This document shows positions 2,750 to 21,468 of a stretch of 28,118 nt of DNA, piece by piece. A program made the translations under genes and the position numbers. Each line of letters opens with the position of its first letter. The first letter of the stretch is position 1. Under the pieces are notes generated by a model. That model did not search any database and was not told where the DNA came from. It saw only the letters and a list, made by a program, of their open reading frames with translations. Location: the IMG/VR virus record IMGVR_UViG_3300037847_000165, positions 1 to 28,118 of that record. One strand, given 5' to 3'. This DNA comes from a virus.

Positions 2750-3682
2750 ATGCTTATAAACTATTCAGACCATATTAACCGACTAAACAACTTCCGAAAA
2801 GGTAAAGTAAAAGAATCACTTACATTAGGTATTAGAGATTTTGACAAACACTTTAGGTTTGTACATTCTAACTTAGTTATGTGGTTAGGGTTTCCAAATA
2901 TCGGCAAGACACATTTTGTAATCTACATAATGATGCTTTATGCGATTAAACATAAATTAAAGTTCTTAATTTTTTCAAGTGAAAATGACCCTGTAAGTCT
3001 AATACGAAAGATGATAGAGTTTTATTTTGGGTTGCCAATAAATAAGATAGAAGAAAAAGATTATGAGAAAGGTGTAAAATTTGTAGATAAACATTTTAAG
3101 TTTGTTGATTGTTCTAAACAATATACTTATACAAGTTTACTTGACTTGGCTACTAACATTAAAAATGCTTGGGATTATGATTGTTTAATGATAGACCCTA
3201 TTAATTCATTAAAGAAAGAAATAAAGGTTGGTAGTAACGCTTTTGAATATGGCTATGAGCAACTAAGCGAAATTAGAATCTTCTCAAAAAAATATAACAT
3301 TGCGACTTGGGTCTGCTTACATACAAACACAGAAGCACTTAGAAAAGTACATCCTAAAGGACATGATTTTGAAGGACAACCTGCTGTACCTAATTATGCA
3401 AGTGCCGAGAATGGGCAAATGAACGCATCAAGGTCTTGTGATTTTGTAACACTTCATCGTTATATATATGATAAAAGAGATTGGATGTACACAAGAATGT
3501 ACGTCAGTAAGGTAAAAAACCAAGAATTAGGTTATCGACCAAACTCAATGAATGAACCTATAATGTGGAAAAGTATCTTAAACAATGTGGGTTTCGAAAT
3601 ATCAGGAAAAAACTTAGTAAAATATCCAACCAGAAAACAACTAACCATTGACAACACTAGAAAAAATAGCGCAAAAACATAA
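2750..3682 (+). CDS. RecA/DnaB-type (RecA-fold) ATPase, putative replicative helicase
   Basis: This 310-residue protein carries a Walker A motif GFPNIGKT (47-54) after the strand NLVMWL. A KFLIFSSEND segment (71-80) has an acidic residue where DnaB/RecA proteins have their catalytic Glu. A Walker B strand CLMIDP (145-150) and a later THR/sensor-like region (TWVCLHTNTEALR, about 186-198) follow. This order is that of a RecA-fold core without the DnaB N-terminal domain, as in short phage helicases and KaiC-like ATPases. The neighbouring SSB-like, exonuclease and DnaA-like genes support a replication or recombination role. The ATG directly follows the T tract of a terminator. No better start exists upstream in frame. 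Hexamer formation and unwinding are inferred. Confidence 0.8.
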   Translation: MLINYSDHINRLNNFRKGKVKESLTLGIRDFDKHFRFVHSNLVMWLGFPNIGKTHFVIYIMMLYAIKHKLKFLIFSSENDPVSLIRKMIEFYFGLPINKIEEKDYEKGVKFVDKHFKFVDCSKQYTYTSLLDLATNIKNAWDYDCLMIDPINSLKKEIKVGSNAFEYGYEQLSEIRIFSKKYNIATWVCLHTNTEALRKVHPKGHDFEGQPAVPNYASAENGQMNASRSCDFVTLHRYIYDKRDWMYTRMYVSKVKNQELGYRPNSMNEPIMWKSILNNVGFEISGKNLVKYPTRKQLTIDNTRKNSAKT

Positions 3683-4142
3683 AGATTGGTTACGCATAGT
3701 AAAGAGCTTTGGGTGTGAGGGAGACAAATGCGAGGATATTGTACAGGAGATGTACTTAAAAGCTCACACTCTAATAAATAGTGGCACAGATATAAGTTAT
3801 GGAGATGAAATAAACCACTTCTATATATACAGAATCCTGCGAAGTTTATTTATTGATTTATGTCGCAAGGAAGCGAAGATAACAAAAGTAAATGTAGAAT
3901 ACTTAGAAAAGTTTGTAGAGGAAGAAGAAGTGCAACAATACAAAGACATAGAGGGTAAAATGAAAGAATTAGATAGTCTACTAGATAAAATATATTGGTA
4001 TGATAAAAAAGTATTTGATTTAATTTCTGGTGGTATGAGTATAGCAGAACTATCTAAAAACTCAGGTATAAGTTATTACTCGTTATATAATACATACAAG
4101 AATGTAAAAAATCTAATAAAAGAAAATATACAATGGGATTAG
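3648..4142 (+). CDS. Phage-encoded sigma-70-family-like factor
   Basis: This 164-residue protein looks like a minimal two-domain sigma factor. Residues 7-75 resemble region 2: CEDIVQEMYLKAHTL (28-42) is close to the sigma DIVQETFLRA helix, and FYIYRILRSLFIDLCRKEAK (58-77) corresponds to the RNA-polymerase- and -10-contacting part. After an acidic linker (90-105), residues 120-158 (VFDLISGGMSIAELSKNSGI and the helix after it) look like the region 4 helix-turn-helix. Start: an in-frame TAA at 3642-3644 leaves TTG at 3648 as the only near start, overlapping the ATPase gene by 35 bases. The next ATG (3750) would cut into region 2. It probably redirects host RNA polymerase, and the TACGTTATA late elements are the obvious candidate targets (inference). 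Confidence 0.75.
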   Translation: MTTLEKIAQKHKDWLRIVKSFGCEGDKCEDIVQEMYLKAHTLINSGTDISYGDEINHFYIYRILRSLFIDLCRKEAKITKVNVEYLEKFVEEEEVQQYKDIEGKMKELDSLLDKIYWYDKKVFDLISGGMSIAELSKNSGISYYSLYNTYKNVKNLIKENIQWD

Positions 4143-4288
4143 GAACACTATTAGAAAAAATAATAAATATAATTACTTTCGGATATGGCAAACGTATGGC
4201 TACATGGGTAGCAAAAAAACTAGGAAAAGACGATTGTGGGTGTGAGGACAGAAAAAATAAACTTGATGATAAAGTAAAGCTATGGTAG
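4133..4288 (+). CDS. 51-residue Cys-motif microprotein
   Basis: The ORF starts inside the end of the sigma-like gene and overlaps the next start (ATGGTAG). The N-terminal half is amphipathic to hydrophobic (LGTLLEKIINIITFGYG). The C-terminal half has DDCGCEDRKNKLDD. A C-G-C-x-x-R-K/Q-x-x-L pattern recurs, to my knowledge, in small proteins of Bacteroidota phages, without known function. The two cysteines could bind metal only as a dimer or with partners. Tight overlaps on both sides support it being translated. Confidence 0.62.
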   Translation: MGLGTLLEKIINIITFGYGKRMATWVAKKLGKDDCGCEDRKNKLDDKVKLW

Positions 4289-8638: not shown

Positions 8639-8754
8639 AACCAAAGAAATACACTACAATACAAAGAATAAAAAGATTAGAGAATATAGTAAGCCAAATC
8701 TACTTGAGTGTTGAGGTTATAAAAAAGCAGCTTGACAAAAAAGAAGAAAACTAA
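8635..8754 (+). CDS. 39-residue basic coiled-coil microprotein
   Basis: The ATG overlaps the methyltransferase TGA (ATGA). The protein MKPKKYTTIQRIKRLENIVS continues with QIYLSVEVIKKQLDKKEEN, a single basic amphipathic helix with leucine/isoleucine heptads. Its stop codon (8752-8754) lies within the upstream edge of the ACGTTATA element, so the early operon ends exactly where late transcription would start. Function unknown. Small helix proteins just before TerS are common in related phages. Confidence 0.55.
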   Translation: MKPKKYTTIQRIKRLENIVSQIYLSVEVIKKQLDKKEEN

Positions 8755-8761
8755 CGTTATA
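8753..8761 (+). promoter_or_regulatory. Late element 1 (ACGTTATA) before terminase genes
   Basis: AACGTTATA shares eight of nine bases with the TACGTTATA found before four later modules. It separates the early block from the terminase genes. A CTTGACA lies 18 bases upstream and could serve as a -33/-35 box. Unlike the other copies it does not sit 14 bases before an ATG. The TerS ATG is 36 bases downstream. Confidence 0.55.
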
Positions 8762-8763
8762 TA

Positions 8764-8777
8764 ATTGATTAATCAAT
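8764..8777. promoter_or_regulatory. Perfect 14-base palindrome, candidate operator
   Basis: ATTGATTAATCAAT is its own reverse complement. It lies directly downstream of late element 1, covering the predicted transcription start and 11 bases before the TerS ATG. The position fits a repressor or activator site controlling late transcription. No similar palindrome was noticed at the other four elements. Confidence 0.45.
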
Positions 8778-8788
8778 CTTTTTCAATT

Positions 8789-9031
8789 ATGGATAAACGC
8801 AAACTTAATGGTGGTAAAAGAGAGGGAGCAGGTAGAAAACCTAAAGCAGAAGAAGTCAAACTAATAGAGAAACTTACACCACTTGAACCTTTAGCATTTG
8901 AAGCTCTTAAAAAGGGTTTAGAGAAAGGCGACTTTAAATATGTACAACTATACTACAATTATGTAGCAGGTAAACCAAAAGAAACAAAGGACATTCACAT
9001 AAATGAAGATGTGCCTTTATTTATTGATTAA
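8789..9031 (+). CDS. terS: Terminase small subunit
   Basis: The 80-residue protein from ATG 8789 begins MDKRKLNGGKREGAGRKPKA. The NGGKREGAGRKP block is a hallmark of small terminase and related DNA-packaging proteins in Bacteroidota phages. The rest is helical (PLEPLAFEALKKGLEKGDFK) and ends in an acidic tail. A TTG at 8765 would add eight residues, but it falls inside the 14-base palindrome and the ATG gives the standard N-terminus, so the ATG is preferred. TerS recognises phage DNA and stimulates the large subunit, whose ATG overlaps this stop by one base. It is short for a TerS, with DNA-binding and oligomerisation parts compressed. Confidence 0.82.
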   Translation: MDKRKLNGGKREGAGRKPKAEEVKLIEKLTPLEPLAFEALKKGLEKGDFKYVQLYYNYVAGKPKETKDIHINEDVPLFID

Positions 9032-10200: not shown

Positions 10201-10220
10201 TTTCTAAAACTTTTATTTAT

Positions 10221-10229
10221 TACGTTATA
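10221..10229 (+). promoter_or_regulatory. Late element 2 (TACGTTATA) before tail module
   Basis: An exact TACGTTATA copy whose first T lies 14 bases before the ATG at 10235, the same spacing as elements 3-5. Read as a -7 box (TAnnTT), RNA would begin within about 3 bases of the ATG. No TTG is present at the -33 position. Confidence 0.6.
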
Positions 10230-10234
10230 TATAT

Positions 10235-10885
10235 ATGAAAGTAGACGTAAAGATTCCAGACACCCTTAGTGAGATTACTCTAGGGCAATATCAAAAGTAT
10301 ATTAAGATACAAGAGCAAAACGAAGATGAAAACTTTATAGCTCTTAAAATGTTAGAAATATTTTGTGGTTTGAAAGGTCAAACAGTACTTAACATGAAAA
10401 CAAAAAGCATAAAAGAAATAACTGATATTCTAGTAAAAATGTTTTCTGAAAAACCTCCACTTGTAAGAGAGTTTAAAATGAATGGTGTTAACTATGGTTT
10501 TATACCAAACTTAGAAGATATGACTTTTGGCGAATATATTGACCTAGATACGTTTGTAGGTAAGACAGAAGATTTACATAAAGCTATGGGAGTTTTATAT
10601 AGACCAATAACACATAAAAGAAAAGAATTATATTGGATACAAAAATATAAAGGCGACGACACTAACTTAATGAAAGATATGCCAATGGATGCAGTTTTTA
10701 GTTCCATGCTTTTTTTTTATCATTTAGGGACAGACTTGTCGAGAGTTATGCTGAACTATTTGGAACAGGACAACGAGGAGAATATAGCGCAGCAGCTAAT
10801 TTCTCTCGAAAATGGGGATGGTATCAATCGCTTCAAGGACTCGCTCAGGGAGATATTACAAGAATTGAAGATATCACTAAATTAA
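10235..10885 (+). CDS. Tail assembly chaperone-like protein, zero-frame product
   Basis: Read without frameshifting this gene gives 216 residues. The N-terminal 160 residues look like a compact conserved domain: IPDTLSEITLGQYQKYIKIQ near the start, a helical middle, then VNYGFIPNLEDMTFGEYIDL (about 88-107) and YRPITHK (127-133). After nine Ts at 10710-10718 the zero frame continues for 55 codons of unremarkable sequence that overlaps a much more protein-like -1 frame. The position upstream of tail completion genes and tape measure is where siphoviruses keep G/GT chaperones, which are made as short and frameshifted forms. The short form is therefore a plausible G equivalent, unless the break is an assembly error. 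Confidence 0.7.
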   Translation: MKVDVKIPDTLSEITLGQYQKYIKIQEQNEDENFIALKMLEIFCGLKGQTVLNMKTKSIKEITDILVKMFSEKPPLVREFKMNGVNYGFIPNLEDMTFGEYIDLDTFVGKTEDLHKAMGVLYRPITHKRKELYWIQKYKGDDTNLMKDMPMDAVFSSMLFFYHLGTDLSRVMLNYLEQDNEENIAQQLISLENGDGINRFKDSLREILQELKISLN

Positions 10886-16941: not shown

Positions 16942-16958
16942 ACAAAATAATAAATTAA

Positions 16959-16967
16959 TACGTTATA
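16959..16967 (+). promoter_or_regulatory. Late element 3 (TACGTTATA) before head module
   Basis: An exact TACGTTATA copy in the 31-base gap after the tape measure gene, with its first T 14 bases before the ATG at 16973. No -33 TTG is seen. It would give the protease gene its own, nearly leaderless transcript. Confidence 0.6.
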
Positions 16968-16972
16968 CATAT

Positions 16973-18544
16973 ATGAGAATCGTTGAATTAATTTTAGGAG
17001 ATGATGAGCTAACAGGAATTGAAGCTATATCTGTAGTAGAAAATCCTGCAATAGAAGAAGATTTTATCGCACTTAAAAGCGAAGAAATAAAACTTGCTGA
17101 GGTAGACAAAGAGAAGCGTATTCTCATGGGTGCTTTACTAATTCCTAACAAACCTATTTACAGAAAAAAAGGCGAAGAAGAATATTATATATATTTTTCA
17201 AAAGACACAGTATCTAAAGCATCTCAATTATACTTAATGAATGGCAATCAGTCAAAAGCAACATTAGAACACCAACACACGATTAATGGACTGACACTTG
17301 TTGAATCTTGGTTAGTAGAAGATGAGGTACATGATAAATCAAGAAAGTATGGATTAAATGTTCCTCTAGGTACTTGGATGGGTGCAGTAAAAGTAAACAA
17401 TGATGATATCTGGAACAACTTTGTAAAAACAGGTAAAGTTAAAGGTTTCAGTATAGAGGGTTACTTTGCTGACAAAATGGAAAGACCTAAAGAACCTGTA
17501 AACGACTTTGAGGAAGAAGAAGCAGAAGAAATGTTGTCTGTAATAAGGTCTATAATAAAAGAGGACAAACGTTTAAAGGGTGGTAAGAGACGAGAACTCG
17601 AAGCATATAGCGATTACCCAGACGCAGTAAAGAACAACGCTAAAAGAGGTATAGAACTAAACGACAAAGTCAACAATAAATGTGCTACACAAGTTGGCAA
17701 GATACGAGCTAGACAACTAGCACAGGGTCAACCAATCTCCAAAGAAACAATAAAGAGAATGTTTTCTTTTTTAAGTAGAGCAGAGGAATACTACGATGAA
17801 AGCGATACAAAAGCGTGTGGCACTATATCTTATTTACTTTGGGGTGGTAAAGCAGGTAAGAGATATGCAGAGTCTAAACTAAAAGAATTAGAAGAACTGG
17901 AATTAGCTAGTATGGTTGTCAATGACGAGTTTGCAATAATAGACGACAGACTTGGATATTCAACACAAGAGAAAGCTGAGGAAATGGCTAAGAACATAGG
18001 ATGCGAAGGTTTTCATACGCACGAGTTTGAGGGCAAAACTTGGTATATGCCTTGTGAGTTTCACATAAAAGAGGATATGAAGAAATGTCCTAAGGGTTTT
18101 AAAAAAGTCTATGGTAAGTGTGTTAAAATGGCTGAGGTAGGCGAAAGAGGTGGAATTCGTAAATCTCCTAAAGCACCAAAGTCAGATACACCAAATCCAA
18201 ACCCAAAAGGCAAAGGAACAGCAAAAGGCGATGCCTCTACAACAAGAGGTGCTAAGGTGTCTAAAAAAGATGAAGCGACTTTAAAAAAAAAGTCTGACGA
18301 GTTTAACGAGAGATACAAAAAGAAATTAGGTTATGGTGTAAATGTAGGAATGTTAAAAGCAGTATTCCAAAGAGGTTTAGGTGCATTTAACGTTTCAAGA
18401 AGTCCTAGAGTTTCTAGTGCTTCACAATGGAGTTTTGCTAGAGTAAACGCTTTTTTGTACTTAGTAAAAAATGGTAGACCACAAAACAAGAAGTACACAG
18501 GCGACAACGATTTGCTACCAAAAGGACACCCTAAAAAACCATAA
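16973..18544 (+). CDS. XkdF-type prohead protease with extra C-terminal modules
   Basis: This is a 523-residue multidomain protein. Residues 1-170 match the XkdF-like phage serine protease: DDELTGIEAISVVENPAIEE, MGALLIPNKPIYRK, a histidine-bearing TLEHQHTINGLTLVESW (98-114), LGTWMGAVKV and VKGFSIEGYF (156-165), where Ser160 is the likely nucleophile and His100 or His102 the partner. Residues 207-310 form a second module (YSDYPDAVKNNAKRGIELND, CATQVGKIRARQLAQG, ACGTISYLLWGGKAG). Residues 334-385 hold GCEGFHTHEFEGKTWYMPCE. Residues 440-523 form another module (GYGVNVGMLKAVFQRGLGAF to LLPKGHPKK), separated by a Pro/Gly/Lys-rich linker. The protease matures scaffold and capsid, whose genes follow. 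The added modules are known to me as movable pieces in phage head proteins, without clear function. Confidence 0.82.
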   Translation: MRIVELILGDDELTGIEAISVVENPAIEEDFIALKSEEIKLAEVDKEKRILMGALLIPNKPIYRKKGEEEYYIYFSKDTVSKASQLYLMNGNQSKATLEHQHTINGLTLVESWLVEDEVHDKSRKYGLNVPLGTWMGAVKVNNDDIWNNFVKTGKVKGFSIEGYFADKMERPKEPVNDFEEEEAEEMLSVIRSIIKEDKRLKGGKRRELEAYSDYPDAVKNNAKRGIELNDKVNNKCATQVGKIRARQLAQGQPISKETIKRMFSFLSRAEEYYDESDTKACGTISYLLWGGKAGKRYAESKLKELEELELASMVVNDEFAIIDDRLGYSTQEKAEEMAKNIGCEGFHTHEFEGKTWYMPCEFHIKEDMKKCPKGFKKVYGKCVKMAEVGERGGIRKSPKAPKSDTPNPNPKGKGTAKGDASTTRGAKVSKKDEATLKKKSDEFNERYKKKLGYGVNVGMLKAVFQRGLGAFNVSRSPRVSSASQWSFARVNAFLYLVKNGRPQNKKYTGDNDLLPKGHPKKP

Positions 18545-18791: not shown

Positions 18792-18812
18792 AAATGCAAA
18801 TATAAATTTAAA

Positions 18813-18821
18813 TACGTTATA
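18813..18821 (+). promoter_or_regulatory. Late element 4 (TACGTTATA) before scaffold/capsid genes
   Basis: An exact TACGTTATA copy in the 35-base gap, with its first T 14 bases before the ATG at 18827. It would drive scaffold and major capsid, the most abundant products, up to the terminator at 20412. Confidence 0.6.
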
Positions 18822-18826
18822 GTAAT

Positions 18827-19411
18827 ATGAAATCAACAGAAATCTTAAACAAAATCAAAACTTTCTTAGGAGAGGAGATACAAGAAGAAACTCAACTCAC
18901 TGAGGAAGTATTAGAACTAGCACAATTAAAGCTAGAAAATGGAACAGTATTAGAAGCTGATTCTTTTGAAGCAGGTAAAGAAGTTTTTATTCTTACTGAA
19001 GATGAAAAAGTAGCTGTACCAAAAGGTGAATACCAAATGGAAGATGGCAGAATGTTAGTAGTCGAAGAAGAAGGACTTATAGCAGAAATTAAAGCTGCTG
19101 AAGAAAAAGAACCTACAGTAGAGGAAGAAGATAGAACAGACGCTGAAGAAGAAAAAGAAGAAATGCAATACGTTCGTAAAGAAGAATTTGAAAATGCAGT
19201 TGAGGAAATCAAAGGCATGATTAAAGAGCTAAAGGAAGAAAAGAAAGAGAAAGAAGAAATGGCAGAGCAAGTTAAAGAAGAACTTAGCAAAACTCCTGCT
19301 GTAGAGCCTATCTCTCACAATCCAGAAGCAAAACAAGAATTTAAAGTAAAGTTCGGACAAAACAGGAAAGAAACTGCTTTAGATAGAGTAATGAAAAAAT
19401 TAACCAATTAA
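18827..19411 (+). CDS. Capsid scaffolding protein
   Basis: This is a 194-residue, strongly acidic protein. Residues 30-85 form a small strand-rich part (LENGTVLEADSFEAGKEVFI, VPKGEYQMEDGRMLVVEEEG), residues 90-160 a Glu/Lys coiled coil, and the C-terminal 40 residues are basic and end in ALDRVMKKLTN. A coiled coil with a positively charged C-terminus that docks on the capsid protein is the classic scaffold layout. The location directly between protease and major capsid genes supports it. It is probably removed by the XkdF-type protease before packaging. It heads its own promoter-like element. Confidence 0.78.
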   Translation: MKSTEILNKIKTFLGEEIQEETQLTEEVLELAQLKLENGTVLEADSFEAGKEVFILTEDEKVAVPKGEYQMEDGRMLVVEEEGLIAEIKAAEEKEPTVEEEDRTDAEEEKEEMQYVRKEEFENAVEEIKGMIKELKEEKKEKEEMAEQVKEELSKTPAVEPISHNPEAKQEFKVKFGQNRKETALDRVMKKLTN

Positions 19412-20381: not shown

Positions 20382-20411
20382 TAAATAAATTAAATTAACA
20401 TATAAGAGGGT

Positions 20412-20436
20412 GGGTAGTTTCTGCCTACCCTTTTTT
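20412..20436 (+). terminator. Terminator after major capsid gene
   Basis: GGGTAG (20412-20417) pairs with CTACCC (20425-20430), with loop TTTCTGC, and six Ts follow. It lies 30 bases after the capsid stop. No TACGTTATA or host-type promoter was found before the next gene at 20451, so partial read-through is likely. Confidence 0.82.
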
Positions 20437-20450
20437 AATACTTAGAAAAT

Positions 20451-20975
20451 ATGGCTTGTATATTAACAAAAGGTAGAGCTTTACCCTGTAAAACAGGAGT
20501 AGGTGGTTTAAAAGCTGTTTACTTTTCAGACTATGGTAGTTATGGTGCTTTGACACAATCTGGAGGAGAAGTTTCTGGGTTTGGTGGAAGTCCTACATTA
20601 ATGAAGTTTGACATTAAAGGCACATCAACGCTTGACACGACTGTAACATCATCAAGAGAAAATGGAACAACTTTCTACGAATCAACTTTAGTTCTTAACT
20701 TAACATTCCAAGAAAAAGCAACATCAGAAGAAATTAAATTATTAGCAGTTGCAAGACCACAAATCATTGTAGCTGATTATAATGGAAATTTCTTTTTATT
20801 AGGCGAAGTACATGGAAATGAGTTAACGACTGGAACGTTTTCAAGTGGAGCTGCTATGGGAGATATGTCTGGTTATTCCTTGACATTCACATCATCTGAG
20901 GTTAATCCTCCATTATTTGTACAGAAATCTGTAATAGATGGTGCAACTGAGGGTACTCAAATAACACCTAATTAA
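20451..20975 (+). CDS. Probable major tail tube protein
   Basis: This is a 174-residue, beta-rich protein. It opens MACILTKGRALPCKTGVGGL, followed by KAVYFSDYG. The middle reads MKFDIKGTSTLDTTVTSSRE and NGTTFYESTLVLNLTFQEKA. The end contains IIVADYNGNFFLLGEVHGNE and AMGDMSGYSLTFTSSEVNPP. The C...KGR...C...GG-(I/L)-K opening, the S-R-E-N-G-T-x-F-Y-E strand and the G-Y-S-x-T-F-x-S-x-E end are features I connect with the conserved tube-type protein of Bacteroidota siphophages. It stands between two terminators, giving an isolated single-gene unit that may be set by read-through from the capsid gene. Confidence 0.68.
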   Translation: MACILTKGRALPCKTGVGGLKAVYFSDYGSYGALTQSGGEVSGFGGSPTLMKFDIKGTSTLDTTVTSSRENGTTFYESTLVLNLTFQEKATSEEIKLLAVARPQIIVADYNGNFFLLGEVHGNELTTGTFSSGAAMGDMSGYSLTFTSSEVNPPLFVQKSVIDGATEGTQITPN

Positions 20976-21040
20976 AATTAATTTTGTATATTGAAGAAAA
21001 CTTAGAGTTTTCATAATTTTAAATTAGTTTTGTTTTTAAA

Positions 21041-21067
21041 GGGGAGTTTTCGGACTCCTCTTTTTTT
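21041..21067 (+). terminator. Terminator before portal unit
   Basis: GGGGAGT (21041-21047) pairs with ACTCCTC (21054-21060), including one G-T pair, with loop TTTCGG and seven Ts. Late element 5 begins 22 bases further on, so a unit boundary is well defined here. Confidence 0.85.
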
Positions 21068-21088
21068 ATACACAAAATCTAAAGTTTG

Positions 21089-21097
21089 TACGTTATA
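21089..21097 (+). promoter_or_regulatory. Late element 5 (TACGTTATA) before portal unit
   Basis: An exact TACGTTATA copy with its first T 14 bases before the ATG at 21103, directly after a strong terminator. The terminator-then-element order is the best positional support for a promoter role. Without it the portal, adaptor and fibre genes would lack a start site. Confidence 0.65.
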
Positions 21098-21102
21098 TAA
21101 GT

Positions 21103-21468
21103 ATGATACACTTAACAACATCTGCTTCTGCACAAACTATAAAAGTGATTCCAAGAAGTTATGCTAGTACAGTAAGTATGATACTGAGAGACGATTCGAC
21201 AAACACCTCAACAACATACTCATCAATAAGCACATCAACAGATAAAAATTATTTAGTAGTATCAAAGGCTTTAAGTCCTGTTTTGGTTGAGGGTAGGTTT
21301 TATGATTTAACTTTAAAAGAGGGGTCGAGTGTAATTTATAAAGATAAAATCTTTTGTACTGCACAAACAATTAACCAAGCTAATAATGACAATTACACAA
21401 TTAATAGTGGAGAATATACTATTCCAACAGGAGACGACAAGCATGATAACGATTATATTATAGTATGA
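21103..21468 (+). CDS. Small structural protein before portal
   Basis: This is a 121-residue, beta-rich, Ser/Thr-rich protein. It has IHLTTSASAQTIKVIPRSYA at the start, SMILRDDSTNTSTTY, then VEGRFYDLTLKEGSSVIYKD (about 61-80) and KIFCTAQTI, ending YTIPTGDDKHDNDYIIV. The (L/V)xEGxFYxLxxKxGxxVIYKxKIFCTxQ stretch is one I recognise from small Bacteroidota-phage proteins beside portal genes, role unknown. It could be a decoration or connector accessory. It overlaps the portal gene by 4 bases and is the first gene after late element 5. Confidence 0.68.
   Translation: MIHLTTSASAQTIKVIPRSYASTVSMILRDDSTNTSTTYSSISTSTDKNYLVVSKALSPVLVEGRFYDLTLKEGSSVIYKDKIFCTAQTINQANNDNYTINSGEYTIPTGDDKHDNDYIIV

Follow-up and report, generated by a model that had tools for sequence, protein, structure and literature searches.

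The window analysed here is a stretch of viral DNA of 28,118 nucleotides (IMG/VR record IMGVR_UViG_3300037847_000165). It holds a small sigma-like gene, 3648-4142, and a set of short elements placed before late genes. These are the features discussed below, with negative positions counted from the A of the ATG as +1:

2750-3682, plus strand: DnaB-like helicase gene, assigned by family profile searches; it adjoins the sigma gene upstream and overlaps its start.
3648-4142, plus strand: gene for a small ECF-type sigma factor of 164 aa with a TTG start, assigned by profile matches and predicted fold; the predicted protein comprises sigma2 (about residues 3-76), a linker (about 77-100) and sigma4 (about 101-160).
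8736-8761, plus strand: candidate late promoter 5, the weaker one (14.6 bits), CAAAA plus AACGTTATA, before terS/terL.
8765-8776, plus strand: palindrome TTGATTAATCAA in the terS leader; the same leader occurs in many relatives.
10204-10229, plus strand: candidate late promoter 1, CTAAAA (-31 to -26) plus TACGTTATA (-14 to -6), before the ATG at 10235.
16942-16967, plus strand: candidate late promoter 2, ACAAAA plus TACGTTATA, before the ATG at 16973 (XkdF-like protease gene).
18796-18821, plus strand: candidate late promoter 3, GCAAAT plus TACGTTATA, before the ATG at 18827, with a probable capsid gene (19422) downstream.
21072-21097, plus strand: candidate late promoter 4, ACAAAA plus TACGTTATA, before the ATG at 21103 and then the portal gene; it lies 3' of a terminator-like hairpin.

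ECF (group 4) sigma factors consist of sigma2 and sigma4 joined by a linker, without sigma1 or sigma3, and the predicted fold of the 3648-4142 product has this same domain plan. The reading frame is open over 164 codons and its TTG start stands immediately 3' of an in-frame stop (TAA CCA TTG); the TTG is conserved in all close relatives listed, and the stop-plus-one-codon context is kept in most of them. A weak start kept so strictly may serve to hold the level of the sigma factor low. The protein is matched by PHROG 1740, 'RNA polymerase sigma factor' (E 2.7e-7), and, over residues 11-77, by Pfam Sigma70_r2 at 22.3 bits, which just misses the curated cut-off of 24, a library setting rather than a defining feature of the ECF family. 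No Pfam region 4 model matched up to an E of 0.1, the only matches there being to generic HTH models; we do not read this as a missing sigma4, the assignment of which rests on predicted structure. An AlphaFold2 model built with 63 relatives as input has a mean pLDDT of 87.9 and shows the sigma2 helices, a poorly ordered linker and the four helices of sigma4. Its pTM is 0.47, a low value that is probably due to the flexible linker. The closest solved structures are E. coli sigmaE, Mycobacterium tuberculosis (Mtb) sigmaH, SigE and SigL, and AlgU, all of them ECF sigma factors, with matches that span the whole chain at Z 9.6-10.3; the best PDB profile match has an E of 0.0094. Several of the named viral matches carry an ECF sigma annotation, and homologues are present in 298 fetched loci. 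As modelled, the 3648-4142 product is a compact ECF-type sigma factor, closest to sigmaE and sigmaH, with weak sequence similarity and a confident predicted structure. Expression of its gene is likely early or middle, judging from gene order, because it overlaps the end of the DnaB-like helicase gene. The first-pass annotation had suggested a small sigma-like protein in the early block, and had named the lack of a sigma2/sigma4 fold as grounds for rejecting its link to the late elements; the PHROG match, the Pfam near-match and the predicted fold, which contains both domains, bear the suggestion out, with 'early' taken from gene order. A cognate anti-sigma factor is common among ECF sigma factors, if not universal, and the small open reading frame beside the sigma gene (4133-4288) gave no match in family profile searches.

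The word TACGTTATA occurs exactly four times in the window, always on the plus strand (10221, 16959, 18813 and 21089), and every copy lies exactly 14 nt 5' of an ATG (10235, 16973, 18827 and 21103). Simulation with a first-order Markov model gives 0.135 expected forward copies; 2000 runs produced at most 2 copies, and at most 1 with an ATG at the 14-nt distance, which rules out a chance word. When one mismatch is allowed there is no enrichment in the window (16 against 11.6 expected), so that what stands out is the exact word locked to an ATG. In a weighted scan of the window, five strong sites of 14.6-22.9 bits emerged, namely the four TACGTTATA sites and one at 8734 before terS; the next best scores were 9.3 bits on the plus strand and 10.1 bits on the minus strand, and no strong site fell within the early half. 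The five sites stand at the heads of the terminase, tail, protease, capsid and portal operons, some of these names resting on gene order. The earlier view that a promoter-like word is confined to late genes thus holds, with four exact copies, the terS copy and an empty early half, and its lock to the start codon had been overlooked. GC hairpins followed by T runs, terminator-like in appearance, are found at about 20400-20440 and 21035-21070, before the genes at 20451 and 21103, and fit separate late operons. The word AACGATAT seen 5' of orthologues of gene 11435 was rejected as coding sequence of the upstream gene, and a motif match in L275 was set aside as chance, that record reading like an enterobacterial prophage.

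It had also been proposed that the element acts as an extended -10 and has no -33 box, and this part proved wrong. AAA at -29 to -27 is common to all four TACGTTATA sites in the window, while random quadruples of sites match a shared trinucleotide at one offset in 0.3% of cases. Among 45 unique sites, picked by CGTTATA alone in 13 records with the window included, AAA is found at -29 to -27 in 45/45, and -30 is mostly C or T. Because this trinucleotide is kept throughout, the late elements are, as judged from their sequences, two-part promoters with boxes at -30 to -27 and -12 to -6; the invariant second box rules out an extended -10 acting alone, and the predicted sigma4 is the kind of domain that would read it. 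ECF promoters are marked by stringent -35 and -10 boxes, fixed spacing and a GT/CG core at -10, all of which are found at the late sites.

The sigma gene and the promoters occur together. The gene after promoter 1 was found in 96 distinct loci, 91 of which carry the motif, and the sigma gene is present in 38/38 of those loci having at least 8 kb of upstream sequence. Relatives that keep the motif and lack the protein, which would have spoken against the original proposal, were accordingly absent among these 38. The sigma gene is likewise found in all 11 searched records of at least 22 kb, and the records without it are shorter contigs. A phage late sigma is recognised by a sigma gene paired with promoters before late genes, and such a pairing is seen here, with the timing presumably as outlined above. 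Two sigma genes each were seen in the L025/L026 record (47,685 bases) and the L147/L165 record (53,010 bases), the former additionally holding two late promoter sets; assembly may have fused two related phages, or the genes may lie in tandem.

A cultured relative shows the same organisation. Nonlabens phage P12024S (genus Inhavirus) has a portal protein 41% identical to that of the window, and its gp33, annotated only as a hypothetical protein 'containing Sigma-70 region 2', is a homologous sigma factor (HMM E 3.8e-26) encoded upstream of the terminase. The link was made through the portal and the HMM, a tblastn search with the window's sigma factor against cultured phages having found nothing; a weak Paenisporosarcina match in a genome collection was dropped, as the HMM did not recover it. 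P12024S carries seven locked bipartite late sites, composed of AAAACAAA at about -34 to -27 and CGTTAATA at -12, one of them shifted by a base. Its -35 and -10 boxes, AAAACAAA and CGTTAATA, thus differ from the CAAA and CGTTATA of the window.

The register of the two boxes bears on where transcription would start. In the open complex of Mtb sigmaH, the -35 element GGAACA occupies -34 to -29 and the -10 element is G-11 T-10 T-9 (PMC6411747). Numbered from the A of the ATG (+1), the phage sites run C-12 G-11 T-10 T-9 A-8 T-7 A-6, and their upstream box lies at -30 to -27. The ATG stands at exactly the locked distance in 170 of the 244 unique strong sites across all fetched loci, and many of the others are the terS promoter, which relatives keep, followed by a leader some 22 nt long. 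Leaderless genes are recognised by a -10 signal about 12 bp 5' of the start codon (Zheng et al., PMC3160421), and CG lies at -12 in the same 170/244 sites. Since the phage boxes fall on the sigmaH register when +1 is the A of the ATG, most late mRNAs are probably leaderless, with transcription starting at the start codon. Leaderless mRNAs are rare in flavobacteria, accounting for 5.5% in F. psychrophilum (PMC9723704), and leaders longer than 10 nt are found on 87% of F. johnsoniae transcripts (PMC6847099). The terS gene probably starts at the ATG at 8789 and not at the TTG at 8765, because the latter sits inside the palindrome TTGATTAATCAA. The palindrome itself, within the terS leader (8765-8789), could be an operator, a hairpin or a packaging-linked site.

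Bacterial sigma factors tolerate start sites a few nucleotides either way, and in a variant of this reading the sigma factor and its promoters would be as described, with transcription starting a few nucleotides off the ATG to give very short leaders or with trimming. The register is known from sequence, and the single P12024S site that is off by a base would agree with such a shift; against it, the boxes at 170/244 sites keep the sigmaH register when the first base of the ATG is taken as +1. We consider a shifted start rather unlikely, if by no means negligible.

If the sigma factor reads the late elements, the two might be expected to change together, and the first-pass annotation had put forward covariation across related phages as a check. 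Protein and motif do change together across relatives, with exceptions. The motif types found among differing sigma factors are CGTTATA, CGATATA, AGTTATA and CGTTAATA. The promoter change from T-10 to A-10 occurred twice on the sigma tree, as forced by well-supported branches, and the covariation thus rests on few independent changes, these two A-10 events. Both A-10 lineages have Gly at sigma residue 66 (S66 in the window), a position that is Ser, Thr or Asn in 46/47 T-10 sigma factors. Residue 66 falls opposite N88 of sigmaH in the alignment, and N88 hydrogen-bonds base -10 (PMC6411747). The alignment was made to Streptomyces sigmaR (1H3L), and the sigmaH numbers were transferred through six residues, W81-Y83-I85-N88-I91-N92, aligned to phage Y59-Y61-I63-S66-I69-D70; at its end, the structural alignment to 1H3L agrees with this register, pairing phage residue 73 with 102. 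K38 is likewise lost in both A-10 lineages, and residue 95 is one other column that converges in both. In L347 and L348 Gly66 occurs with K38, and L348 retains T-10, which rules out a strict one-residue code in which Gly66 means A-10. In the Gly66/Gln38 group (L054-L057, L354-L362) the -10 arrangement differs: the late element is approximately (C/T)GTTTATATATTAAT, with an AAAA box about two bases closer (L359 at 8484, L355 at 10184, L428 at 13739). More distant sigma factors go with A at -12 (AGTTATA, AGTTATCAT, AGTTAATA) and ACAAAA upstream, as in L190 (10001), L079, G019 (L112/L113) and G020 (L114/L115). Automatic counts of position-locked 6-mers yielded no clear motif for the most distant clades, where some motifs were read by eye, and in G018, among the most distant sigma factors, no clear locked motif was found. 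Taken jointly with a leaderless late switch, it is our tentative view, held at somewhat less than even confidence, that sigma and promoter specificity changed together more than once, partly through the residue contacting base -10.

Instead, a sigma factor of the host, be it sigmaA or one of the ECF kind, might read the late elements, perhaps helped by an activator from the phage; the phage's sigma-like protein would then have another role. F. psychrophilum does have ECF promoters of its own in which a CGT box lies at -10 (motif SM6; PMC9723704), and TACGTT coincides in part with the TAnnTT pattern of the host. However, F. johnsoniae sigmaA uses a -7 box of the form TAHHTTTG, in which G hardly ever stands at -10/-9 (PMC6847099). 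The phage word, by contrast, carries CG at those positions without exception, and it is the leading TA that varies among relatives. In host sigmaA promoters (TTTG / TAnnTTTG) both TA and TTTG are invariant; the late elements have no TTTG, and on this consensus we rejected a host sigmaA promoter as unlikely. A host ECF factor recognising a CGT box is conceivable, yet it leaves the match to the phage sigma factor unexplained, nor would a host factor lead one to expect that the motif varies along with the phage sigma factor or with its residue equivalent to N88. We therefore regard reading by a host factor as improbable. A search for early promoters of the host type (TTTG/TAnnTTTG) turned up none that was convincing 5' of the early genes. 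Least probable is that the element is a translation signal replacing a Shine-Dalgarno sequence, or a site for RNA binding held close to the start codon: the 14-nt distance to the ATG is indeed fixed at most sites and the start context is A/T-rich, but a second box is conserved at -30 to -27 with fixed spacing, the ATG distance differs at roughly one site in four, many of them with the ATG 20-26 nt further and both boxes intact, the sites stand at operon heads and not before every gene, and the motif differs by sigma type, so that we discarded it.

We thus return to the phage's own sigma factor as the reader of the late elements. The protein family, the predicted fold, the two boxes, the ATG lock, the co-occurrence and the co-variation with sigma type are observed in the sequences; the timing, core enzyme binding, the start site and the reading of these boxes by the sigma factor are what we infer. 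Made early, the ECF-type sigma factor would associate with the host core RNA polymerase and bring it to the late promoters, which head the operons for terminase, tail/tape-measure, protease, capsid and portal. There sigma4 would read the -35-like box, C/T-AAA at -30 to -27, and sigma2 would read CGTTATA at -12 to -6, with its core G-11 T-10 T-9. Transcription would begin at the first base of the start codon, leaving most late mRNAs leaderless, while the terS message would have a leader some 22 nt long. The pairing of the sigma factor with the late elements, as first suggested, is well supported by fold, co-occurrence and covariation once its single-box promoter is given up. It is very probable, in our judgement, that the 3648-4142 sigma factor drives the late operons through two-part, start-codon-locked promoters.

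Phage sigma factors with late promoters are established. Salmonella phage 7-11 has a late sigma factor, SaPh711_gp47, with a bipartite late promoter (PMC8948821). The 7-11 promoter sequence and host group are unrelated to those of the window phage, and the passages considered report no start-codon lock. In phiEco32, the small sigma factor gp36 serves middle and late genes from a single-element promoter, tAATGTAtA, and has no homology to region 4; a factor of this kind, using a -10-like element alone, differs from the present one with its two boxes and predicted sigma4. The small late sigma factor of phage T4, gp55, lacks region 4 and reads only a -10-like element together with gp33 and the sliding clamp. 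Mtb sigmaH and Streptomyces sigmaR share with the phage sigma factor the domain plan, the -10 core GTT and the pattern of contact residues, but they are cellular and have GGAAC at -35 where the phage has CAAA, and the sequence link has an E of only 0.0094. Compared with the established phage systems, the sigma family, the host group, the start-codon lock and the natural series of co-changed sigma/promoter pairs are different here.

As far as our literature search went, no late-gene switch has been described for marine flavobacterial phages. Possibly, though we would not yet count on it, a single sigma factor switches transcription and translation together across a broad group of flavobacterial phages, with leaderless late mRNAs and with sigma and promoter specificities that have co-changed. 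If true, this would provide a testable late regulator for marine flavobacterial-type phages and a promoter consensus with which to annotate the late operons of hundreds of uncultured phages. The natural sigma/promoter pairs with altered specificity would be useful for working out the sigma recognition code, and might be used for orthogonal expression in Bacteroidetes. Moreover, in hosts without Shine-Dalgarno sequences, where initiation is leader-based, the late messages would sidestep that route.
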